Source: Oidiodendron maius Zn (lineage: Eukaryota; Ascomycota; Leotiomycetes; Myxotrichaceae). Taken from it: DNA of 64,000 bases. The DNA is taken from the NCBI GenBank assembly GCA_000827325.1, contig KN832909.1, forward strand, positions 1 through 64,000. Direction: 5' to 3'. The notes under the pieces were generated by a model, which was not told the origin of the DNA, made no database searches, and saw only the letters and a list, made by a program, of their open reading frames with translations. Positions 31,720-61,789 of the stretch are shown here, piece after piece. Positions within the stretch are counted from its first letter, which is position 1. Every line of letters begins with the position of its first letter. Both the position numbers and the translations under genes were made by a program.

Positions 31720-32985
31720 GCTTCTAATAGCCCTGAATCCAATGATTATAATGACTACCTAGCTACCTACTAACTAAGCAAACCTATATCTCTTACGTCT
31801 AGCCCTAATATCCTTCTCAATCCGCATATTAAGACCTCGAACACCACGCTCTGCACTAAGCCCTCCGCTTGCATTGAACTCGACCTGCACCTGCATTTCA
31901 ACCTCGATAGTCTCTTGCGTACCCCAATCTAGCCAAGCCTCAACCTCTTCATTAGTCCACTTAGGAGGGTGATTGATATAATCTAAGAGGGTTAACGTCT
32001 CTAGGTCTAGTCTCTGGATCCCTAGATACTTGCGATCCTCATTTAACCACCCCTTTGAGTACTGTACTAGCCCTCGTGCTTTACGATAATGAGCCGGCCA
32101 AACGTCCGGATGAGCTGTAAGCCAGGCCACTTTCTCAGCTACATATCGTTTGTGAATAAGCTCAAGTCGGCCTGGCCAAATTGGACGAGTATCAGATTCA
32201 GGGACAGGTTGAGTGGCTAGCTCAGGGTCAAGCTGCGCAGCTGATTCAGGGTTAAGTCGACCGACTGGCTCAAGGTTAGGTCGACTGGCTGGTTCAGGGT
32301 TAGCTTGAGTAGTTAACTCAAGGATTGACTGGATAGTCGACTTAGGGATCAATTGATCACCTGAATCAAGAACTGATTGAAGCGCTGATTTCAGGCTAGA
32401 CCGGCTAGTTGAGTCGAGGATAGCCTGGACAGTTGCTCTAGGAATAAATTGACTAGCTGAATCAGAGGTTATTTGAGTGGCTGATTCGGCTCTAAGCTGT
32501 TCCTTTGTATAGCGTATATTAACTGGGCATCTAAGACTAGCCCTAGTGTGGCCAATCTATGGCATAGGCCACACCTGCATTGCTGAGGCTCTGATCTCTC
32601 CCATCCTGAGGGAATCCTTCTAGTGCTATAAGCCCGACTAGAAGCAGATGGCAGGTGATTGACACTACACAAAGGCTCAAGAATCAGCTCAGGCAAGCCA
32701 GAATATCGATCCCAGTACCAGTGTGGATGAAAATCACTAGGTAATAGAGATATTCGCTCCTCTCGAATATAGTCAACTCGATGCGCACAGAGTAGGCCAG
32801 TAGTAGCTATAAATACGCCTGTACAGGGCTCTAAGGGCCTCTTAGCACTAGTATAATTCGAGTGAACTAGCCGTAGTGCGGTTTGTTGTAATATATCCAA
32901 GCATGCAGTGTTAAGCTATGTAGAGGGGGCTAGCCGTAAATGGATGCACTAGTTATATTCACACCCTAATATCCGGAAAGAGTAA
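31720..32985 (-). mobile_element. Internally deleted MULE (derivative of the MULE A/B family)
   Basis: Two minus-strand frames (32,900-32,469 and 32,352-31,774) match the C-terminal third of the MULE B transposase. They include the zinc/SWIM-type region (EPCTGVF...LCAHRVDYIREE), FHPHWYWDRYSGLPE, a shortened Pro-Glu-Ala repeat, WPGRPELIHK-like sequence and the end GVRGLNM. Directly upstream, at about 32,930-32,985, comes terminal-repeat-like sequence (gccgtaaatggatgcactag then ttatattcacacc) instead of the catalytic domain. That gives an element reduced to one end plus the transposase tail. The opposite terminal repeat is not seen, only the subterminal taatagccctgaatc near 31,725. It is non-autonomous and broken. 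Confidence 0.75.
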
Positions 32986-36093: not shown

Positions 36094-38408
36094 CAAGGCT
36101 CCAAATCACTCAACATTGTTCAACATGCTGAATGGATTGAGTATCAACGTCAATCCAACTCAATCAATATCAAGCTTAAATATCTAATAGCTCAATCCAT
36201 TCTGGTGTCCAGTTGAGTTGAATGGATTGAAGTCGGCTAACCCCTGCGTCCACTCTAAGTCCAGTTCATCCTCCCTGGGCAAAGGCCTGTCTCGCGACGG
36301 CGTTCCTGCTGTGTCGTGGCATCAGAATAGCCATGGGCTCAATTTCCAAAACTACACCTTCCACGAAAGATGAAACCGAGACGCTCTCCTCACCGGCGAC
36401 AACCGCGACCCTCCCAACAACGCCGACTCCGGGTTTCAGATCAGAGACGCCAGATCAAGAAGCACAACAGCAGCAATACCTCTAGCGCTGTTTTTCGGGT
36501 TATGTGTGGTCATAGCGCGCTTGAAGTATATCATCTTGGGTATAGGACTTTGGCTACGACATCCAAAAATCCGATGGCAGCCGTCGATGGGTTTGTAAGC
36601 GCCGTATCCAAAACAAAAAGCCCTACAACTAGAAGCTCTGCAGAGAAAGGCACTCAGAACGCGAATGCCCATTTATTTAGGGATCATGGAATATTTGCTC
36701 AGCCGAAAAGACAAAATCAAGCCGGCAGAGAAGTTGAAGGCCAAAGATCAGAGATCCATTGCTGATGAGATGAAGCTCGATACAAAGGTCCCTCTAGAGC
36801 AAGCTATGGAGAATGACATTATCCAGGGTTTCGACCGCAAGCGCTTTAAGCGTCTTCTACTCGAATGGATCGTCGAATAGAACCACTCCTTTACTGTCTG
36901 TAAGCAGGGGAGACTACGTAGAATATTCGAATACCTCGACCCGCTTGTTAAAATTACCGATGCCAATATCATTATTACAACTGTTCGCCACAAGGTCATC
37001 TCAGCCTACGAAAAACACACGGATGAGGTCATAGGGGTCCTGAAGAAGTCGTGCGGCTTAATACACATCTCCTTTGATGGATGGAAGCTAGGAAATAGGC
37101 ACTGCTTCTATGGTGTGTCTTGTTTCTTACATATGATCCGGCACGCTCTTAGACTTCGTCCACTCCTCGGACAGCCCATTTTGAAGCACGGTCAACAATG
37201 GGAACAAGAAGTCGGTCGATGAAGACTGGATATCCGAGGAGATCAGCCAAAGATCCCCAGATTTGCATAGAGGAGAACCGGATCACGTCCAGAGACTAGG
37301 AAGTTCTCGAACACCTCGCTAGGCTTCTAGGGTTCTATGAGGATGCCCTCAAAATTCTTGAAGGCGATGGCCAATATCGCAAGCGGAAAAGAGGGTGGGT
37401 TGGTTTCTATGGCAATATATGGGAGGTTATTCAAGGGTTCGAATTCCTCTTGGAGGTCCTTGAAGACTATAAGCGGCTAGCTGCTGATATGCCTGATCCG
37501 GAGCACTTCAGAATCAGCACCAATTTAGGTTAGGAGAAGCACAATAAATGCTACAGCCGTTTGGATGAGACCCCGATTTACTATACGGCGCTGGCGGTGC
37601 ATCCGACTTTCCGATGGGGATGTTTCGAGAACGAGTGGAAAGAGAACATGGAATGGGTCACCAAGGCGAAGCAAATGGTCAAGAAGTATGAGAGACATAA
37701 TATCGTCTCCTTCAGATTATACGAAATCCCGTGGCCGACGAACCAGTTGCGAAGCGACAGAGGAAATACTACAATCCATTCCCAGCATACTGCGAGCGCA
37801 CTCGAACTGTCTCCAGTTTCAGTATGGTGAAAGGTGAAGCCTCTTCGCCCGACCATATTGATCAGGACATTGACGAACTCGAACTATGGCAGTCTTCTTT
37901 GGAGGGCGGGGATAATGAAGTTAGAGACCCTATATCGTACTGGCACGAGCGCAAACGACGATATCCTCATCTTTCTCGGATGGCGCTTGATTTCCAGACA
38001 ATCCAGCCTATGTCAGCAGAGTGCGAGAGATTATTTGCAGCGGCAGGGCGCATGGTGACGCCTCTGCGCAGTCGGCTTGATGCCAAGATCATAGGGATGT
38101 GTCAAGTTTTGCGCTCATGGTTACGGGCTGGAGTAGTCGACGATCTGGATGTATTGCTTCTTCCTGTTCAGGACAAGATAAGTGGTGACGAGGAGACGGA
38201 CGATATACCATGGATAACCACACGGTCTGAAGGAATTGCGGCGGAAGAGCAAGGGTTGAAATAGCTCCACTTGGAGTTCAACGTACTTCAATTACGCCAA
38301 CTCAATTCGACTTGACTCGCAATTGATCAACTGGTGACCATCGTTGACCAAGTCAATTCCACTCAATCAAGGCATTCAGGTGAGTGGTTTGAGTGGTTTG
38401 GAACCTTG
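36094..38408 (+). mobile_element. hAT transposon, about 2.3 kb, with both ends
   Basis: Inverted ends: CAAGGCTCCAAATCACTCAA at 36,094 and the reverse complement of the right end, CAAGGTTCCAAACCACTCAA, ending at 38,408. Many TTGAGT/ACTCAA-like subterminal repeats occur at both ends, as is usual for hAT elements. The plus-strand transposase is spread over several frames. It shows FKRLLLEWIVE, LIHISFDGWKLGNRHCFYGV (catalytic-domain start) and, in a 177-aa C-terminal frame (37,731-38,264), PISYWHERKRRYPHLSRMAL plus MSAECERLFAAAGR (hAT dimerisation domain). Several stops and frame changes inactivate it. A perfect 8-bp target duplication could not be found. It is a different subfamily from the hAT copies at 5,735 and 41,978. 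Confidence 0.85.
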
Positions 38409-38715: not shown

Positions 38716-40690
38716 TTATTGTAAAGCTACACTTCCATTCTGCGGCATCCACATCCAGTCGTCAAATATAAAGTCTATGGAGCCAAAATCCACATTGGCG
38801 TAGGAACCGTCGGTTCTACGCATCGCGCCAGGCTCTGCTTCTGACGTTGTCTCAATTCTCAAATCTGGCGCGTCTCCATTGACAACCCGGATCCCCTTCT
38901 TCCGCAAACCAAGTAGATTGCTCCTCTCTAACCCCCCCCCCCCCCCCCCCCCCCCAGCTCGATGCCAGCATTTTGAACCAGTTACCGTGACTTGCTTCAG
39001 AATAAATCTGTGAGCTTTGCTCGTTCAACCGCCGACAGAACAAATCGGTGTACGCTTCCAAGTGAATAATATTCCGTGCTGACTCGATACTCCAAGAAGG
39101 TGAAGCAACACCCATGGTTAACTCTATTGCAAGATTAATTGCGTAATGAATCCTGGCCCAGTTAAAACCCATCATGTTCTGGAAATCTTGATCCGAAAAT
39201 ACTGTGAGCATGTCGAGAATCTCTTTCACAGTGATGAGGCAGTCGATTAGTACTGCCATTCTAGATAGTGAAAGGCTCATTTGGGAGACATTGTACAATC
39301 CTACTTCAAGTGTGTAAGCTTGAACAAGTATGTGTGATGCATGTAACATTCCTTGGTAAGTGTTAGAACTCTCAAAAGAAAGTTGCGATCAGAAGAGAGA
39401 CTTACTATTGTCGGCAAGTTCTGGTTGTATGCTCGATCTCAGCTCTTTTCATTGGGCCTCAAAATACTTGACATAGAGTTGTAGTCTTTCGTCCGTGATT
39501 TTCTAGGCTATCTCGGCGTTGCCATACCCAAATGTCTCATCAATCTCCGCAGAGTGATATGCTAAGCGTAGATAGTGAATGATGGTCAAGTCTGACGGAC
39601 TTGGTTCTCAGCGGCAAGTGACAACGCGCATTCCTCGAGATATTTTGAAAATTTCAAAGCCCCAGTTTTTCTCAGAGAGAGTGAATACCTGTATCTGAAT
39701 TAGCAGAAATATAAGGACACTGGAGAAGTCATGATATACGATGTTGAGATAACATAACAGCCAACATAAGCTCGCTTAGCTTCGGCGCCCGGACGTTCTG
39801 GTGAATTCGAAATTGACCCCTAGCTTTCTGGTTTCGGTCGGTCTCATGTCAAGTCCAAGACTGATTACCAAAGAGACGGCTGAAGCAGTGAGTCGATAGG
39901 CTGACTTCAAATGAAAATGGCGCCTTCGCAAACGTCACTATCATATCCAAAATTCCATATAAGAACAACAAACCAGGCAAGGTGAATTAGTAAGCTTTGA
40001 AGCATATCTAAACTTTGCTCCCCTCTCATAATCATGCGCTCCCCTCTCTCCTTTAAGTATTGTCGTTCCAGAGCAACCTGCAGTGGCCTGTTGCGCTAAG
40101 AAGAGGTAGCGAGGATGGAGAGTAGGAGTAGAGGTCGCTCTCGTTGAAACCGGGAAACCAAGATTTCTGGAACCAAGACATACGGAAAATCCTGTGCCAT
40201 TAGTTTGAAGACTTCAACAAGACCTTCTGCATAACCCTCGGTTAGAATACCGTGATCAAATACATTACCCTCGCCGAAGAATGTTGAAGAATTGTGGGCG
40301 GCGACCTCTGAACGGGTACCGAAATAACGCTCAACTCCCGGAAGAGGTATTGATTCACCACTGTCAACAGACAACGAGCGCTTTGCGACTAATTCAGCTG
40401 TAACCGTGGTAAGTCCTTGCTCCAACCGCTCGACACTTAGCACCTCAGCATACGGGGAAAATCTGGGACAAAACATGCTTACGCCTCTTTCTCCGTTTGC
40501 GTGCTTTGAGCTGTGGAAGTTCACAGTCTTGGCCAGAGTGATAACATCTGGAAGATATTAAGCACAAAATTTCACTGAGATATTGAGTAGATGAGCACTA
40601 ACTTTTGGCACGCGGAAACCCCTGGAATCTCGGAGGGGAGACACCTCACTTTCTTGGTCTTGCATAATATACATACCTCTTTTTCGCCAT
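38716..40690 (-). pseudogene. Zn(II)2Cys6 transcription factor C, pseudogene
   Basis: Read leftward from about 40,680: [13 protein letters not shown], then a ten-residue spacer and C-x2-C-x6-C. The last cysteines come after a 49-bp GT-AG intron, so the zinc cluster is complete. A basic run (KARKRRKRRKH) follows. The frame then breaks. The next frame gives PYAEVLSVERLEQGL and QDFPYVLVPEILVSRFQRERPLLLLSILATSS, which is typical of fungal regulators. An in-frame TAG follows at about 40,096, before QVALERQYLKE. Later pieces include VSLVISLGLDMRP and FNWARIHYAINLAIEL. A 24-G run interrupts the C-terminal part before FGSIDFIFDDWMWMP and the stop at 38,716. No residues are found N-terminal to the zinc cluster. 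Confidence 0.8.
38932..38955. repeat. C24 homopolymer inside regulator C
   Basis: Twenty-four consecutive C on the plus strand, read as poly-Gly from the minus strand within the C-terminal part of regulator C. The length in the genome may differ from that in the assembly. Confidence 0.95.
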
Positions 40691-41865
40691 AGTTTTCCTA
40701 ATTCCTTGCGCCATTGCGAAAAACATTCAAACCCTTCTCGTTTGTCGCGCTATTGATGGCATCGCTTTCTCAGCGCCGATGACGGTAGTTGGAGGAACAC
40801 TGGCTGATATTTGGCGGGCCGAGGAAAGGGGAATGGCTATGGCAACCTTTTCTGCTGCTCCCTTTTTGGGCCCGGTCATAGGGTAAGACAATAGCCACGC
40901 ATAAGGAATCCTCCCTAAGTAATATTTCTGTTAGACCAGTCGTGGGAGGATTTCTGAGTGACGCTAAGGGATGGAAATGGCTGTACTGGCTTCAGCTGAT
41001 ACTTGCCGGCGTGGTGTGGATTGCAATAACCTTCACCTACCCCGCTCGCATCCTAGCACAAAAGGCTGCCGGGTTAAGGAAAGACACTGGTGACCAACCA
41101 TACACGTCAATAATCGACGTTCGAACAGAATCCTTCGCGTCATATCTTGGCGCCTATTTGATTCGGCCATTCAGATTACTCTTCACAGAACTCATTGTAT
41201 CTCTTGTGTCCCTCTACATGTCTGTCTTGTACGGCGTCTTATACATGTTTTTTGTGTCATTTCCTGTCATCTTCCAGGAAGGCAAGGGCTATACTGCCGG
41301 AATCACCGGCCTAATGTTCCTTCCCGTGGCCATCGGTTGTGGCATTGGCCTCCTCTTCGCGCCACTTATCAACCAGGACTATCTGACGCAACGTGCCAAG
41401 TACCGAGGCATGCCTCCAGCAGAAATCCGACTTCGCTCCATGATGATTGGGTGTTGGAGTCTACCTATTGGTTTATTTATTACAGCTTGGACCAGCTACC
41501 CACATCTCAGCTGGGTTGGACTGGCACTAGGTGGCCTTCCGATGGGTTTCGGCTTCGTCCTTCTATACAACTCAGCCAACAACTATATTGTTGATTCCTA
41601 CCAACACCTAGCCGCGTCTGCACTTGCAGCAAAGACCCTGGTGCGGTCTTTGTATGGTGCGGGAACAGTTCTTTTCACCGTCCAGATGTATCATAAGTTG
41701 GGCAGCCAATGGGCTGGGTCCCTCGTTGCTTTTATTTCGTTGGGCTGCTGTGGAATTCCGTTCTTGTTCTACAATTATGGAGCAGCTATTAGAAAACACT
41801 CAAAGTATGCCTATAGTGGCGAAGATGAGGAGCAGGGGGATATCTCCGATGTTGCTGAGAAGTAA
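40674..41865 (+). pseudogene. MFS multidrug-type transporter (DHA1), N-terminus missing
   Basis: Exons 40,674-40,882 and 40,935-41,865 (intron 52 bp, GT-AG). The first recognisable residues are [19 protein letters not shown], helix 3 of a drug:H+ antiporter. [19 protein letters not shown] follows, then [15 protein letters not shown] (motif C of the antiporter group). The remaining helices run to an acidic C-terminal tail (GEDEEQGDISDVAEK). Helices 1-2 and motif A are absent, and a stop lies three codons upstream of the YLFF segment. The frame is otherwise intact over about 380 aa (usual family length 450-550). The missing end abuts the missing N-terminus of regulator C. Without helices 1-2 it is unlikely to transport. 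Confidence 0.85.
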
Positions 41866-41977
41866 GCAAGTGTTGTGTCACCAGGTTTGAAAACCATGGT
41901 CCGGTACTTTTTTTACATGCTGTACGATGCTTGTGTCATGGAGAGAAAGTTGCATCGGAATCCTTTCCGGTCTGACA

Positions 41978-44464
41978 CAGTGTAAATACCACATGTATAA
42001 CCAAATTGGAATACACATAGCGTGCGATTTAGCTTCCTATCGTGCCGTACCAAGAAAGTCAATAGACCTATCATACGCACACTGTGCAAACTAGGGGTGT
42101 AAATGTATACTCCCCTGTGTAATACTGCAACACACCTCGCTAGCGCTACACCCTGCTGTCGCTCCCCACCACTAACTCCAATACAGGAATCTCTGGATAA
42201 TACAGAACACTAATATTTAAGGATTATTTCCGGTTAATAGAGAGTTCCGTATATTCAAGAGTATAACTAATCTAAATCCCCCCCCCCTCCCCCCCCCCCT
42301 TTTTTTACCCCTAACCTAGCCAACCAGTCAGATTCAACTGCTCCTTTAAGTTGGTCTTTTCAGCCTATAAGATCCATAACTCCTTCCGTAACTGGGCTAT
42401 TAGGTCCTGATTAGCCAGCTGATCCCTTTGCTCCTAGTATAATTTTAGAGTATTTAATGCTACAATTGCTTCAGATACTAAGACCTTAGCCACCTCCTTA
42501 ACACTAACCTCTTGATCGTTCTAGAGGGAGTAATATACTATAATCTGATCAGTTATATCCTCTTCTGAATCAACTATCCTTTCGTTCTCTAAGTAGATAA
42601 AGCTCCTTATATCCACTAGCTTAATCCTTTGATCAGAAGTAGCTAGAGAGCTAGCTATACCTTGTATTTCTTGGATTAATTCAAGAGATTCAGCCTAGCA
42701 GCTATTATTTTCAGGCCCTTCTTTAACCTCTTTAACCTCTCTAAACCCTTTTTGCTAGTATCTAGTTATTAGAGTTGAATCAATAGACTCCTAGGCTTGA
42801 ATACTCCATTTAATAGCCTATAAAACATAGTATATCTTAGTGTAATCTCTTCTAGTATTAAATTTAGTTATAAGAAACTATAAAAGTTGCCTCTTAATAT
42901 AATACTTCTAGTTCTGAATAATCCCTTAATCTAATAGTTAAAAAATAGACATTGTATTAGCTGGAAACCACTTAATTTAAGTCTATTTAAGTAGTTAATT
43001 ACTCTCCCTGATTAATCTAACTATAGCTTTATAAGTATTGAAGTTATCTATTAAAAGAAGTATAGGTTTTTAAGCCCTCTTATTAAACTACCTTAGCCAC
43101 TTAACTATAATTATATAGGTTATCTAAGCAGTTGAATTCGCCCTCTAAAAGAAGCCTTTATTCTTAGTGTTTATAATATAATTTTAAGTGAAATAATAAG
43201 GCCTTTAAGCCTTGCCAATAAACCAAAGAGAGAGCTTATTACTGCTATCCTTATTGTAGCAAAGGTTAGCTATAATTCAAGTTTTATTAACCCTCTTGCT
43301 AGTAGAGGTTATTGTAAGGCCTGTATTTGGAAGCCTTTTCTAAAGAAATCCAGTCTTATCTATATTATAGGTATTATTAGCTGAATATTCAGCCTTAATT
43401 ATCTGAATATACTTTATCTAAGTGATTATATCCTCAGTTATTTCAACTGAAGAGGCTTCGCCCACCTTCTTATAGCAGTAGAAGTTATATCTATTCTTAA
43501 ATCCACCTAGCCAACCCTCGCTCTAATCTAGGTGCTCTAATCCTTGATACTTAGGGAGCCTTTACCAGAATTCAGAAGCCTTTAGCCTTAAGAGGTTACC
43601 TGAAATAATACTATGAACCTGATCAAATTGTACTGCCTAATCACCTAGAGCCTTCTTAAGTATATCCCACTTTGTAGTCCTTAAGTTCTTTGCCTTTAGA
43701 TTGACTTAATTAGAATCAAGGTGACTATTCTTTATTAAAAGGATATCATATACAGTTGAAGAGCTTAAAGGATATCTATATTCAGTATACTACCAAGCAG
43801 ATATATCTATAAGAGTCTTCTTTAGGCCAGGTATATAATACCAGGTATATAAAGCCTTCTTTTGAGCGTTAGTAATACCAATTCAAGGCCGCTTAGCCAC
43901 TGGAACAGCTGGAAAAGATATAATTAATAAGAAAAAGGGTCTCGTTTTAATCCGGAAATACCAGAAAAAGTGCTCCGGTTACGGTAAAAAGAGAGTTTCC
44001 GGATATTTGCCCTGAAAAATCAAAATTTTCCGGGTATTTTCCGGGTAAACGAGAGTTCCGGACTAACCAGTTCCGGATTAAAAAGGGATTCCTGTATATT
44101 GAATTCCTTGATCTTTTACCATGACTTCAGACACTCCAATGCCTCCAATAACTCAGGACCAATACGATTATAACGACCTTCAATAGTAAGTCTGCAGCTG
44201 GAAAATAACCGCCTAACGTCAGCCGACATGCATGGGATTGAGAGTATATCAGGGGCCATCTGGCTCAAGTTGGGGTTTCTGTGCTTTTTAAGAAGCCACC
44301 AGGCAATTGGATCTTCCACCTACTCAACCCTCTCCTTGATATATCGACTGTATTTATCATCACGGCTCACAATATCGTCAACTTGAGCTAATGTCTTGAC
44401 CTTGAATTTCTGGAGGTACGCTGCATATTGGTTGACGGTTTGGAGACAGGCTTTGAAGCGACAA
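41978..44464 (-). mobile_element. hAT transposon remnant, copy 2, split by a pogo-like element
   Basis: The left end CAGTGTAAATACC (41,978) and the next 200 bp are the reverse complement of 6,110-6,306. Beyond the insert (42,184-44,094) the sequence resumes at tattgaattccttgatctttt, exactly as in copy 1. The minus-strand frame at 44,319-44,116 encodes the dimerisation domain (EDPIAWWLLKKH, MSADVRRLFSSC, LLEALECLKSW). The upstream catalytic part is missing. Homology to copy 1 ends at about 44,464. Confidence 0.85.
42184..44094 (-). mobile_element. Fot1/pogo-like DNA transposon, 1.9 kb, degenerate
   Basis: The ends CAGGAATCTCT (42,184) and GGGATTCCTG (44,094) are inverted repeats flanked by TA on both sides (42,182-42,183; 44,095-44,096). 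The flanking hAT sequence continues without other loss. On the minus strand, remnants read RPRIGITNAQKKALY near 43,880 (N-terminal helix-turn-helix) and YPLSSSTVYDILL near 43,760. The catalytic domain is unreadable through AT-rich, RIP-like mutation with many stops. The 1,911-bp length fits the Fot1 class. It carries a C7-9 interrupted tract near 42,278-42,299. Confidence 0.85.
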
Positions 44465-45830: not shown

Positions 45831-48800
45831 ATGGTATGCGAGATTATTACCGGAATAGGATATGATTAGCCTGTGGATGTGTCTACTCGTATGCTCTAAC
45901 TTACGGCCGCCCTTACATTCGCACCCCAAAGGATGACTAAGATTCGCACCCCCGCATATCAATTACCCTTTTCAGCTACATGTAGTTGAATATTACTAAG
46001 ATTACCTCTTTTGGACGCTGTGGTGCGAATATAACTAGCGTACCCCTTTACAGTTAGCCCCCTTTATATGTTATTATGGAACCTTAGGCTCTTAATAGCC
46101 CTGAATCAAATACAGCCCTCTTGAAGCTCAAATACAGCCCTGAAAATGAATCAATTCAGCCAATTTGACGTTTCTGACCCCTTCTCTCAACCACCACCAG
46201 CGCAGCCCCTGACCAGCGCGTCTGACGTGTTATCCCTGCCACCTCTAGCTACCTACCCCTCTAGGGAGGCCCTTTTTGAGGCTATTCAGAGCTGGGCTAA
46301 GCTACAGGGGTATGCCTTTACTGTAGGCAAAAGCAAACGTGTCCGTAATGGGCGTCAAAAGGTATATTACACATACGATCGCTGCCCTCAACCTAGGCCT
46401 GAACCTCGAATTGAGCGCGTTCGGGATACTCAATCACGCAGTACAGGGTACTAATTCCAGGTAGTTGCAGCAGAGACCCTTACCTCTGAATGGGAGCTTA
46501 AATATCGCACTGGAACTGAGTTTAATACTCATAACCACCCTCCTAGCCCTAGCCCAGCTGCCCACCCTTTGTATCACAGGCTTCCAGTTGAAGCTTAAAA
46601 TACAGCCTGTAACCTCTTCTCAGCTGGTAAGTCTAGGGTTATAATTAGGGTTATAATTAAGGTAATAAACTAAGGGTTATTAGGTATCCAGCCACAGCAA
46701 ACCCTGACTTTTCTCCGTGGCTTAGAGCCTGAAATACCACTTCTGCCACAGGATATTTATAACCAGGCCTCTCAAATTCATCGAGATATATACAAGGGCT
46801 ACTCTACAACTAAGGCACTAGCTAATAACCTTGAGGCCAAGGGGATTAAGTATCATATCCTAAAGGAAGATAGTACTGATCAATTAAAGGACCTCTTCTG
46901 GGCCTATCCTGAATCAATCAAATACCTTTAGTCTTACCATAATATCGTTCTAATCGACAATATATATAGTACTAATCGATTTAGTATACCCCTTATAGAT
47001 ATCATTAGTTAGTTCTTAACCCTCTCTTACTAGCTCCCTAGCTTACTAGTATAATAGGGGTTGATTATAATAATAAGAGCTTCTTTATTGCCTTTACCTT
47101 CCTCCCTAATTAAACAGAGGGCTTGTATCGCTAGGCCTTAGCTTAAATCAAGACCCTTTATAGTCTTATTCACCCTATAATTAGCGTTATTCCAGATGCA
47201 ATTAGTACTAATTATAATCAAGCCTTAAGAAATACTATTTCTGAAATATTCCCGGATTCTAGTATACTACTCTGTCTCTAGTATACTAATAAAAATGTCC
47301 AGTAGTACTATAAAGCTAAGTTTACTAGTATTAAGGACTATAATGATTTCTTTTTAGTATAGCTAGGCATTATTCGGTTACCTAGTATCCCTAAGTATTA
47401 TACTTGACTGCTCTAGTTTAAAACTTAGTATTCTAAGACTCCTAAATATCTAGTATATATTAAATATATTAAAACAATATAGTTAAAGCCAGGCTAAGTT
47501 AAGTCACTAGTTTAGGCCTAGACTAATCAATATACTCACTTTAGTATTATAGTTATATTAAGGTAAGTAAGGATACTAGCTTAATTTAATTATATTAATA
47601 ATATTAGGGTTAAAGCAGTATATTCATATATTAAGCACTATATTCTTAGCTTCTAGAGTAATCTCTTAATAACCTAGCTATTGATTGAACAGGCTATAGC
47701 TAGTCAGTTTCAGAATATTAAGGCTATTATAGTAAGGGATCAAATCAGGACACTATTAGACCTTGATCAGGCTTACTATAGTATATACTTTAATTATATT
47801 ATAACTTCTATATTATATAAGGTTTATTTAAATTATACTGGTATTAAGAGGCCCTTATAGCCCTATACTGGTGTATTTACAGCTACTACTAGACTACTAT
47901 ATATACACCAGGTTGACTATATTAGAGAGGAGGGATTATCCTTACTCCCTGATGATTTTTATCTATACTGGTACTAGGATCGATACTCAGGCTTACCTGA
48001 GCCTCTTCTTAAGCCTCTATATATTATCACCTATATACTATCTGCTTCTAGTAGGACTTATAGCACTAGAAGGATTCCCTTTAGATAGGAGGTATCACAG
48101 CCTTAGCTATATAGGTGTAGCTTATACTGTAAGATTGGCTATACTAGGGTTAGTCTTAGGTGCCCAGTTAATATATACTATATAAGGGAAGAGCTTAGAG
48201 CCGAATCAGCCACTCAAATAACCCCTGATTCAGCTAGTCAATTCATTCCTAGAGCAACTGTTTAGGATATCCTCAACTTAGCTAGCTAGTCTAGCCTCAA
48301 ATCAGCGCTTCAATCAGTTCTTGATTCAGGTAATCAATTGATCCCTAAGTTGACTATCCAGTCAATCCTTAAGTCAATTACTCAACCTAACCCTAAGCCA
48401 GCTAGTCAACTTAACCCTGAATTAGCTACACAGCTTAAACCTAAGCTAGCCACTCAACCTGTCCCGGAGCTAGCCACTCAACCTGATCCTAGACCACTAA
48501 TACAGTTTAGTATAAGTCCTGGCCCTAGATCACTACCACCGCTACTGCCTAGCCTAAGTCCTGACCTAGAGCCTGCCACTCAACCGGTCTCTAAATCAGC
48601 TAATACTCGTCCAATTTGGCCAGACTAGCCTGAGCTTATTCATAAACAATATATAGCTGAGAAAGTAGCCTGGCTTGCAGCTTATCCAGACGTTCAGCCA
48701 GCTTAGTCTCGTAAAGCACAAGGGCTAGAACACTATCCAAAGAGGTGGTTAAATAAGAATTGCAAGTATCTAGAGTATTAGAGACTAGACCTAGAGACAG

Positions 48801-57052: not shown

Positions 57053-60023
57053 CTAAGCATACCGGTATCTCTTACGTCTAGCCCTAATATCCTTCTCAAT
57101 CTGCATATTAAGACCTCGAACACCACACTCTGCACTAAGCCCACCGCATGCATCGAACTCAGCCTGCACCTGCATTTCAACCTCAATAGTCTCTTGTGCA
57201 TCCCAATCTAGCCAAGCCTCAACCTCCTTGTCAGTCCAGTTAGGAGGGTGCTCTCTATAGTCTAAAAGAGTCTCTGTCTCCAGGTCTAGTCTCTGAATCC
57301 CTAGATACTTGCGATTCTCATTTAACCACCTCTTTGGATAGTGTTCTAGCCCTCGTGCTTTACGATATTGAGCTGGCCGAACATCCGGATGAGCTTTAAG
57401 CCAGGCCACTTTCTCAGCTACATATCGTTTATGAATAAGCTCAGGTCGGCCTGGCCAAATTGGACGAGTATCAGGTTCAGGGACAGGTTGAGCAGCCGGC
57501 TCAGGGTCAGGACTTAGGCTAGGCAGTGGCGGTGGTGGTGATCTAGGGCCAGGACTTATGCTAAACCGTATTAGTGGTCTAGGATCAGGTTGAGTGGCTG
57601 GCTCAGGTTCAAGCTGCGCAGCTGATTCAGGGTTGATTCGACTGGCTGGCTCAGGGCTGATTCGACTGGCTGGCTCAGGGCTAATTCGACTGGCTGGCTC
57701 AGGGTTAGGGCAACTGGCTGGCTCAGGGTTAGGGCAACTGGCTGGCTCAGGGTTATGTTGAGTGGCTGGCTCAGGGTTAGGTTGAGTAATCGACTCAAGG
57801 ATTGACTGGATAGTCGACTTAGGGATCAATTGATCACCTGAATCAAGAACTGATTGAAGCGCTGATTTGAGGCTAGACTGGCCAGCTGAGTTAAGGATAT
57901 CCTGAACAGTTGCTCTAGGAATGAATTGACTAGCTGAATCAGGTGTGATTTGAGTGGCTGATTCAGCTCTAAGCTGTTCCCTTGCATAACGTATACTAAC
58001 TGGGCACCTAGGACTAGTCCTAGTATGGCCAATCTCATGGCATAAACCACATCTGCGTAGCTGAGGCTGTGATGCCTCCCATCCAGAGGGAATCCTTCTA
58101 GTGCTGTGAGTCCTACTAGAAGCAGATGGCAGGTAAGTGACAATACGCAGAGGCTCAAGAAGTGGCTCAGGTAAGCCTGAGTATCGATCCCAGTACCAGT
58201 GTGGATGAAAATCATCAGGGAGTAAGGATAACCCCTCCTCTCGAATATAGTCAACCCGATGCGCACATGGCAGGCCAGTAGTAGCTGTAAATACACCAGT
58301 ACAGGGCTGTAAGGGCCTCTTAGCACTGGTATAATTTGAATGAACCTGGCGTAATGCAGGAGTGGTAATATAATTAAAGCATGCACTATATTGAGCCCGA
58401 TCAAGGTTTAGAGGTGTCCTAATTCGATCCTTTGCTGCATCAGCCTTAATACGCTGGATTTGATTGGTTATAGCCTGTTCAATCGAGAGGAAAGTCGTTA
58501 ATAGATCAGCCTGGGAGTTATTCATATAATCCTTAATATATGAATGTGCTGCTTCAACCCTAATATTATTAATATAGCTGTAAATTAAGCCAGTATACTT
58601 ACTTACCTTGAAGTGACTCTAATACTGAAGTGAGTGCTTTGATTAGTCCAGGCCTGAACTAGTGACTCAGCTCGGCCTGGCTTTAGCCATGTTGATTTGA
58701 TGTATTCAACACACTCCAGGTGTTCAGGAGTCTCAGAATACCGGGTTTCAAACTGAAGCAGTCGAGACTGATATTCAGGGATGCTAGGTGATTGAACAAT
58801 GCCTAGCCATGCCTTAAAGAAATCATTGTAGTCCTCAGCACTAGTAAACTTAGCTTTGCAGTGCTGCTGGACATTCTTATTAGCATGCCAGAGGCATAGT
58901 ATTGTACTAGAATCCGGGAATGTCTTAGAAATAGCATTTCTTAAGGCTTGATCACAATCAGTACTAATTGCTTCTGGGATAAGGCCAATTGTAGGGTAAA
59001 TAAGCCTATAAAGGGTCTTAATATAAGCTAAGGCCCAGCTGTATGAGCCCTCTGTTTCGTCAGGGAGGAAGGCAAAGGCAATAAAGAAGCTCTTGTTATT
59101 ATGATCAATCCCTATAATACTAGTTAGCTAGGGAGTTATTAAGGGAGGGTCTAATACTAACCGATAATATCCATTAAAGGTAGTTCAAATCGATTTGTAC
59201 GGTATGTATTATCGATTAAGAGAACATCGTGGTGAGACTGAAGGTATTTGATTGATTCAGGGTAGGCCCAAAAGAGGCCCTTCAGTCGATCAGTCCCCTT
59301 CTCCTTTAGGATATCACACTTAATTCCCTTAGTCTCAAGGTGCTTAGCTAGTGCCTCAGTTGCAGAGTAGCCCTGGCGTAGATCTCGACGAACTAGGGAG
59401 TTGTGATTATATATATCCCGTAGTAGAAGTGGTATTGTAGGGACTAAACCTTGGAGAAAAGTCAGGGTTTGCCGTGGCTGTATACCTATATAGGGTTAAT
59501 TATATCACTAGTTATATCCCTAGTTCTTACCTGCTAAAAAGAGATTTCGGGCTGTATTTTGTGCTTCAATTGGAAGCCTGCGGTGCGAAGGGTGGGCAGC
59601 AGGGCTTTGGCTAGGAGGGTGGTTATAAGTATTGAACTCAGCTCCAGGGCGATATTTAAGCTCCCATTCAGAGCTAGGGGTTTCCACTGCAACCACTTGA
59701 AATTGGCACCCTGTACCGCGTGATTGAGTATCCCGAACACGCTCAATTTGAGGTTCAAGCCTAGGTAAATAGCTGCGATCGCATGCATAATATACCTTTT
59801 GACGGCGATTGTGTATCCTCTTACTCTTGCCTACAGTAAAGGCGTATCCTTGTAGCTTAGACCAGCTCTGAATAGCCTCAAAAAGGGCTTCTCTAGAGGG
59901 GTAGGTAGCTAGAGGTGGCAGGGATAACGCGTCAGACGCGCTGGTCAGGGGTTGTGATGGTGGTGGTGGTGGTGGTGGTAGAGAAAAGGGGTCAGAAACG
60001 TCGAATTGGCTGAGTTGATCCAT
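57053..60023 (-). pseudogene. MULE B transposase gene, nearly intact
   Basis: Exon 1 from ATG 60,023 (MDQLSQFDVSDPF, poly-Pro, then the FAR1-like REALFEAIQSW...VYYACDRS domain) ends at a GT-AG intron near 59,531-59,475. The middle shows MULE-domain blocks in the region 59,470-58,600: LLIDNTYRTNRFE, IGIDHNNKSFFIAFAFLPDE, ISTDCDQALRNAIS and LCLWHANKNVQQHC. The last 490-aa frame (58,525-57,053) has the zinc/SWIM-like CTGVF...PCAHRVDYIREE, a C-x2-C knuckle (RRCGLCHEIGH), the 8-residue Pro-Glu-Ala repeats, WPGRPELIHKRYVAEK, and a basic end (DIRARRKRYRYA). A few stops and frame changes lie between 58,600 and 59,200. Otherwise it is complete. Confidence 0.8.
57590..57800 (-). repeat. 24-bp coding minisatellite in the MULE B transposase
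   Basis: About eight tandem units of a 24-bp repeat encode 8-residue variants such as SPEPASRI, NPEPASCP and NPEPATQ. The MULE A copy (48,360-48,600) and the deleted MULE at 32,210-32,340 have fewer and more diverged units, so the array has expanded or contracted between copies. Confidence 0.8.
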
Positions 60024-60568: not shown

Positions 60569-61789
60569 ATGACCGCCAGCAGGCGCCATCTGAAATCGCG
60601 AAATGGCTGTATACAGTGTAAGAAGAGAAAGGTTAAGGTAGTTCTGCAGTTTCTGCCAGAAGCACAGCTCTCGTTGACATTCCACAAATAGTGCGACGAG
60701 TCAGAAAATTCATGCAGTTCGTGTATCAAGCGTGGTGCATGGTGCTCCCTCAAACCCGGAACACCTCCACTTTCGCTCAAGTCACAAGTCGCCAGCCCTC
60801 TCCCGGTATCCATCCTTTTAGACCTTGAACTGCTACATAACTTCTCTTCCAGAACATGTCTATCCATGACAAACCGTGTTCCTCTACAGGAGTTTTATAA
60901 AACAACTTTCATTACGGAAGCTTTGAAATCAGAGCATCTTCTCCGGCTGGTTCTTTCCGTCTCGGCTCTCCATTTGACGGAGCAGCATCGAGAAACCCTT
61001 ATAACTACAGACGGACATGAAAAGGCTGCTGTTGTGTCAAAGGTCAAAGAATATCTCACAGCCGCCGATGTTCATCACAGTGTGGCTCTTGGCTCTTTTA
61101 GGAAACGTCTCGCAAATATTACGGCAGAGGATTCCCATGCGATCTTTGGTTGCGCGGTTCTTATAGCGATGGCATCTGTCGCTCGGTCTTGCGGGAGCTC
61201 ATGGTCATTCCATTTGGCTGAAAGGCAGAAAGCTGACGAGAACATCCTAGAATACCTGGTCCTCCTCCGCGGTATCAAGTCAGTTCTTACAGAAACACAG
61301 GAATGGGTACAGGCAGGACCCATGTCACCAATTATTTGGCAACCCGGCAATACAGGGAAGGACAACAAATGTATCACTGCTTATCTGGACAAGCTTTCTG
61401 CCGCCTTTGTGGAATCCGCTGAGCCAAAAGTGGCTGCAATATGCATTGATGCTATCAAGCTGCTTCGACAGTCTTTCGCAAGAATGGAATCTGGCTGTGA
61501 GCCATCGATTGTGTCTTTCTGGCCGGTGCTGGTGCACGAGGATTATATGGAATTGTTAAGGTCAAGCCAGCCTGAAGCACTAATAGTATTGGGATCTTAT
61601 TGCGTATTTCTACAATCGCAGAAGTGGTGTTGGTGGGTCAAGGGGTGGCCGGCAAAAACACTCAAGACGATTGACGGGATGGTTGGTGACGAATTGAGAC
61701 CCTGGCTTCGGTGGTGTGTGGAGCTTTTACACCCCAGAGATTCAAAACAGGAGACAGGGCGTGTCTCATTTATATCAAGGGGGCCATAA
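60569..61789 (+). CDS. Zn(II)2Cys6 transcription factor D (388 aa), UPC2-like architecture
   Basis: Exon 1 (60,569-60,637) begins MTASRRHLKSRNGCIQCKKRKVK. A 54-bp GT-AG intron interrupts the zinc cluster, and exon 2 (60,692-61,789) continues CDESENSCSSCIKRGAWC. Together they give C-x2-C-x6-C-x6-C-x2-C-x6-C. Then LLDLELLHNFSS, EHLLRLVLSVSALHL and SWSFHLAERQKADENI follow the layout of the C-terminal ligand-type domain of sterol-uptake-control-like regulators. WCWWVKGWPAKTLKTID and a final DELRPWLRWCVELL lie near the end. No stops or frame changes are seen. It sits only 150 bp from the transposon stack. An N-terminal nuclear DNA-binding role is clear; the target pathway is unknown. Confidence 0.88.

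Follow-up and report, generated by a model that had tools for sequence, protein, structure and literature searches.

The window, meaning the whole stretch of DNA that was analysed, comprised 64,000 bases (1-64,000) of contig C40 (89,241 bp) in an assembly of 45.9 Mb and 58 contigs. Genes with introns and abundant Zn2Cys6 candidates suggest a filamentous ascomycete as the source; a 5.8S rRNA search gave no match. Two genes lie head to head at about 40,668-40,690: a Zn2Cys6 regulator on the minus strand and an MFS transporter on the plus strand, both lacking their 5' ends (Table 1). The hAT remnant on the 3' side of the regulator was identified with Pfam Dimer_Tnp_hAT (E = 1.2e-16, 37,701-38,264), and the AT-rich element on the 3' side of the transporter has imperfect terminal inverted repeats of 28 nt, while its dinucleotides show a RIP-like bias.

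Table 1. Coordinates of the features around the junction of the two truncated genes.
Feature	Coordinates	Strand	Evidence
Regulator C, Zn2Cys6 pseudogene, first zinc-cluster cysteine to probable C-terminus	38716..40673	-	C9 alignment, cysteine spacing, Pfam
Regulator lesion stretch (3 in-frame stops, 2 frameshifts)	39449..40098	-	C9 alignment
Regulator introns	~40,546-40,604; 40,428-40,474 (uncertain); 39,922-39,975; 39,687-39,741; 39,349-39,406	-	
24-C run (plus-strand letters) inside the C-terminal part of the regulator	38932..38955	-	Frame likely differs on either side
Seam of the two truncated genes, head to head	40668..40690	.	Alignments, Pfam, paralogue columns, uniqueness, no repeat
MFS transporter lacking N-terminus and helices 1-2; one intron	40668..41868	+	Pfam MFS_1, paralogue alignments
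hAT transposase remnant, 3' side of regulator	36331..38264	+	Pfam Dimer_Tnp_hAT; upstream limit from open frames only
AT-rich element, 3' side of transporter	42181..44097	.	Terminal inverted repeats, dinucleotide bias

Elsewhere in the window, the minus-strand open frames at 31774-32915 and 57053-58618 share long protein stretches (by eye), each with a 24-nt tandem repeat, and are probably copies of one transposable element. A separate regulator with a Fungal_trans_2 domain lies at 60692-61789 and shows no apparent connection with the seam. Besides the 24-C run, a second C-rich run is present at 42278-42299; these may be unstable tracts or assembly slips. RIP was considered as the cause of the damage and rejected: taken over its full length, neither the regulator nor the transporter gave a RIP signal in the dinucleotide indices. 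Within the region scanned (34-47 kb), the RIP index was clearly positive at 42,001-44,000 and 46,001-47,000, and a single 500-base segment of the regulator, 40,001-40,500, was borderline, with a composite index of 0.00.

The cysteines of Zn2Cys6 clusters are spaced CxxCx6Cx(5-12)CxxCx6-8C. The regulator fits this spacing across one intron, with the pattern C-x2-C-x6-C-x10-C-x2-C-x6-C on the minus strand and a GT..AG intron splitting the second x2 segment, between the fourth and fifth cysteines; the Pfam Zn_clus score (E = 0.0032, 18 bits) was below the 21-bit cut-off. The first cysteine codon occupies 40,671-40,673 and homology to the closest paralogue, on contig C9, starts there, so the regulator does begin with the first cysteine of its zinc cluster, as the initial annotation had stated. 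Upstream of this cysteine, eight codons devoid of ATG are followed by an in-frame TAG. In four regulator paralogues the start methionine precedes the first cysteine by 14-27 residues, counted by eye from start positions that were judged (one paralogue could begin five residues earlier).

The C9 gene model, with five introns, was aligned to the window by a procedure that permits frameshifts, stops and introns. As to the middle homology region of fungal transcription factors, two regulator fragments gave no Pfam match, and the C9 alignment spans residues 12-519 with a score of 533.5 (51-57 for five shuffled C9 proteins). Four of the five regulator introns fit those of C9 (same phase, no more than one codon apart); the second, which is doubtful, lies some codons away and in a different phase. 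The alignment stops near 38,948 and the remaining C-terminal part, to 38,716, was placed by eye. The lesions counted are three in-frame stops (40,096-40,098, 39,503-39,505 and 39,449-39,451) plus a frameshift near 39,811 and another near 39,609, and no in-frame start, hence no intact open reading frame with a start codon, is present: the regulator is a decayed pseudogene. The count leaves out the doubtful second intron, the poly-C run and two mutually compensating frameshifts (40,329/40,295) within a weak linker. Across the genome, the C-terminal half of the regulator matches a single paralogue, the one on C9 (29% identity, E = 1.4e-11), and the N-terminal half matches C10 and C9 about equally. 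Among five paralogues with a readable zinc cluster (C9, C10, two on C1 and one on C4), the cluster is interrupted by an intron in C9 only, where its position and phase equal those in the window.

The transporter frame begins past a TAA at 40,665-40,667 and runs for 381 codons to a stop at 41,866-41,868, with one intron (40,883-40,934). Pfam MFS_1 matched with E = 4.9e-31 and 108.3 bits (cut-off 33.4) over profile positions 70-343 of 347. Because the match begins at profile position 70, at residue 4 of the frame (codon 40,677), helices 1-2 are missing, and the start in helix 3 read in the initial annotation was confirmed. The gene therefore has neither the full helix set (12 or more) nor a start codon, its first in-frame ATG being residue 38; by comparison with loci L008 and L003, roughly 130-200 codons are gone from its front. 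The transporter presumably belongs to the DHA1 (drug/H+ antiporter) subfamily, and its best paralogue match has 45% identity (E = 3.9e-88). In a tree of 12 rows, made up of the window's transporter and the 14 paralogue loci L003-L016 minus L013, L015 and L016, it is sister to L003 on contig C1 (97/98 support). Its missing front aside, the transporter is undamaged: against three paralogues no stop was found from the seam to its own stop codon, and there was no excess loss of invariant sites: the transporter differs at 3 of 40, and 11 paralogue rows at 0 to 5. One scan each of viral contigs and of prokaryote genomes confirmed no relatives of the transporter.

Places where regulators and MFS genes are neighbours were compared in the same genome. 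The closest regulator paralogue lies beside an MFS gene of the window's group at about C9:815.8-820.1 kb, tail to tail, so the head-to-head order does not recur at the closest paralogous pair. By our own arithmetic, an MFS gene from among the 6 nearest relatives would fall within 5 kb of the C9 regulator by chance about 0.1% of the time, and any of 83 MFS genes about 2%. This stretch (C9:813000-822999) holds adjacent aldehyde dehydrogenase-like, Zn2Cys6, MFS and reductase-like frames (enzyme names by eye), possibly a small metabolic cluster. The other neighbours on C9 had no match in the window, and the outer flanks gave only short matches to the C9 stretch (best 14 bases, E = 0.031). A recent duplicate that would display the breakpoints was sought and rejected, the best paralogues being 45% (transporter) and 33-37% (regulator) identical. 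Near L003 on C1, no regulator was seen within 7.5 kb (open frames, by eye).

For the neighbour count, 150 of 614 Zn_clus candidates were scored and set against 83 MFS places, hand-picked from 124 paralogue-match rows at roughly one per gene, the window's two rows excluded; the places are transporter-match coordinates, Pfam scoring having covered 9 of 810 MFS candidates. At least four regulator/MFS pairs within 5 kb were found (one divergent, three tandem) vs about three expected, so that such neighbours occur at about chance level among the places compared. The C9 pair is missing from this count because its zinc cluster lies outside the scored list. The earlier proposal that the two genes had been a regulator-transporter pair gains a precedent in the divergent Zn_clus/MFS pair on C4 (1,083 bp between both matches); the chance-level frequency is neutral towards it.

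The seam is real and was located to an interval. Frameshift-aware transporter alignments begin at 40,689 (L003), 40,671 (L005) and, through a frameshift, 40,636 (L004); the last extension, which contains the single transporter frameshift (in one of the three paralogue alignments), was judged spurious, since it enters the zinc cluster. Paralogue columns are clearly positive for the transporter only from about 40,689-40,695. The two homologies stop no more than about 20 bp apart, with an overlap of a few bases or a gap of up to about 15, and the joint at 40,673/40,674 first proposed is just one point between about 40,668 and 40,690. No space for a promoter is left between the genes and neither has an in-frame start, in agreement with the initial annotation. 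A 601-base stretch centred on the joint has one match in the assembly, no repeat was found at the seam, and the window contains no N letters.

The seam is a real yet ordinary gene relic, most likely a scar left by an ordinary deletion where the DNA is littered with transposons. We regard it as probable that one deletion took the 5' ends of two neighbouring divergent genes together with the intervening DNA. Two adjacent, divergently oriented genes would have undergone a single illegitimate deletion, which, by the lengths of the paralogues, may have removed roughly 14-27 regulator codons, the intergenic region and roughly 130-200 transporter codons. In a published survey (PMC2871058), the mean divergent spacing in fungi is given as 1,343 nt, and a deletion of ~1-2 kb would therefore suffice. 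The regulator would have gained its stops and frameshifts after the deletion, or already before it; the transporter frame, still open, may have been broken later or spared by luck. Presumably neither gene yields a working protein.

The fate of the missing transporter N-terminus was examined with that of L003 as query, which gave 56 matches in the assembly (E <= 0.001) and none on C40. A downstream MFS match within 1.5 kb accompanied 50 of the 56, among them every one of the 22 with E <= 2e-8, and the remaining six (rows 42, 44, 46, 47, 48 and 51) were weak (E 6.9e-5 or worse). Among these matches there is thus no strong orphan N-terminus elsewhere in the assembly, and loss therefore fits better than a reciprocal rearrangement: judged from the sequence matches, the N-terminus was probably lost, not moved.

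The damage is unevenly shared, with five counted lesions in the 1,465 coding bases of the regulator vs none in the 1,143 of the transporter. Under an even spread along coding bases, all five would fall in the regulator with p = 0.056; if less certain lesions are added, p falls to 0.031 for six lesions and to 0.010 for eight. This lopsided decay hints that the two genes may not have died together. The single deletion of the initial annotation is favoured by the loss of both 5' ends at one seam, the lack of a strong orphan N-terminus, the single assembly match and missing repeat at the seam, and the divergent pair on C4; the lopsided damage, the tail-to-tail order on C9 and the six weak N-terminal matches count against it. 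The shared divergent promoter did not fare as well, given the tail-to-tail C9 pair and the absence of a visible regulator within 7.5 kb of L003; such a promoter and an old partnership might be supposed from the deletion, and the orientation of the C9 pair gives neither any backing.

A clearly less likely reading, though one to be taken seriously, is that the seam joins fragments that were not divergent neighbours, through inversion, translocation or transposon-associated end joining. Transposon remnants flank both sides, the sister L003 has no regulator in view within 7.5 kb, regulator/MFS neighbours are about as frequent as chance predicts (4 pairs vs about 3), and the unequal decay suggests that the deaths of the two genes may have been separate in time. 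The seam has no repeat, however, and a strong orphan transporter N-terminus is lacking, although such a piece could have disappeared afterwards.

An assembly error is improbable: C-rich runs do lie within 2 kb on either side (38,932-38,955 and 42,278-42,299), but the window is free of N, the seam carries no repeat and its surrounding 601 bases match once, and the other regulator lesions represent decay away from the seam. It is very unlikely that the transporter was cut inside an intron instead of in coding sequence, with 40,674-40,692 as the 3' end of that intron. A pyrimidine tract followed by ATAG does end at 40,692, and the paralogue columns back homology only from about 40,689; however, the DNA farther upstream is regulator, 12 paralogue rows cross the site uninterrupted, the Pfam match runs from codon 40,677, and the upstream frames score poorly against the paralogues, with means of -19 to -24 across 20 columns. 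Equally far-fetched is the closure of a circle, or a tandem-duplication joint, from a pair once tail to tail as on C9, in which breakpoints in both 5' ends would join the heads and the order now seen would follow from reopening the circle past the 3' ends; the seam would then be the fossil of a circular intermediate and not of a deletion.

Under the preferred deletion between neighbours, the seam adds one regulator/transporter loss in a transposon-rich contig and carries little weight beyond the local history of gene loss. If related species had an intact pair, the loss could be dated; if their pair were tail to tail, a circular intermediate would be indicated. Among the titles listed in literature searches, none concerned such a seam.

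Elsewhere in the genome, the regulator/MFS pair on C9 resembles the window in that the closest regulator paralogue adjoins an MFS gene of the same group; unlike the pair in the window, it is arranged tail to tail with apparently undamaged open frames, and its MFS gene is not the sister of the window's. With Zn2Cys6 (GAL4-type) fungal transcription factors, the regulator shares the six ordered cysteines and a basic linker, but it has no start and carries several stops and frameshifts. With MFS_1 transporters, the transporter has in common helix 3 onward, the GPVIGP motif and a frame open to the C-terminus, and differs from them in the missing helices 1-2 and start. Deletion scars can fuse two neighbouring pseudogenes; no distinctive difference from them was found at the seam, where, as in such scars, two truncated genes abut with little or no filler.
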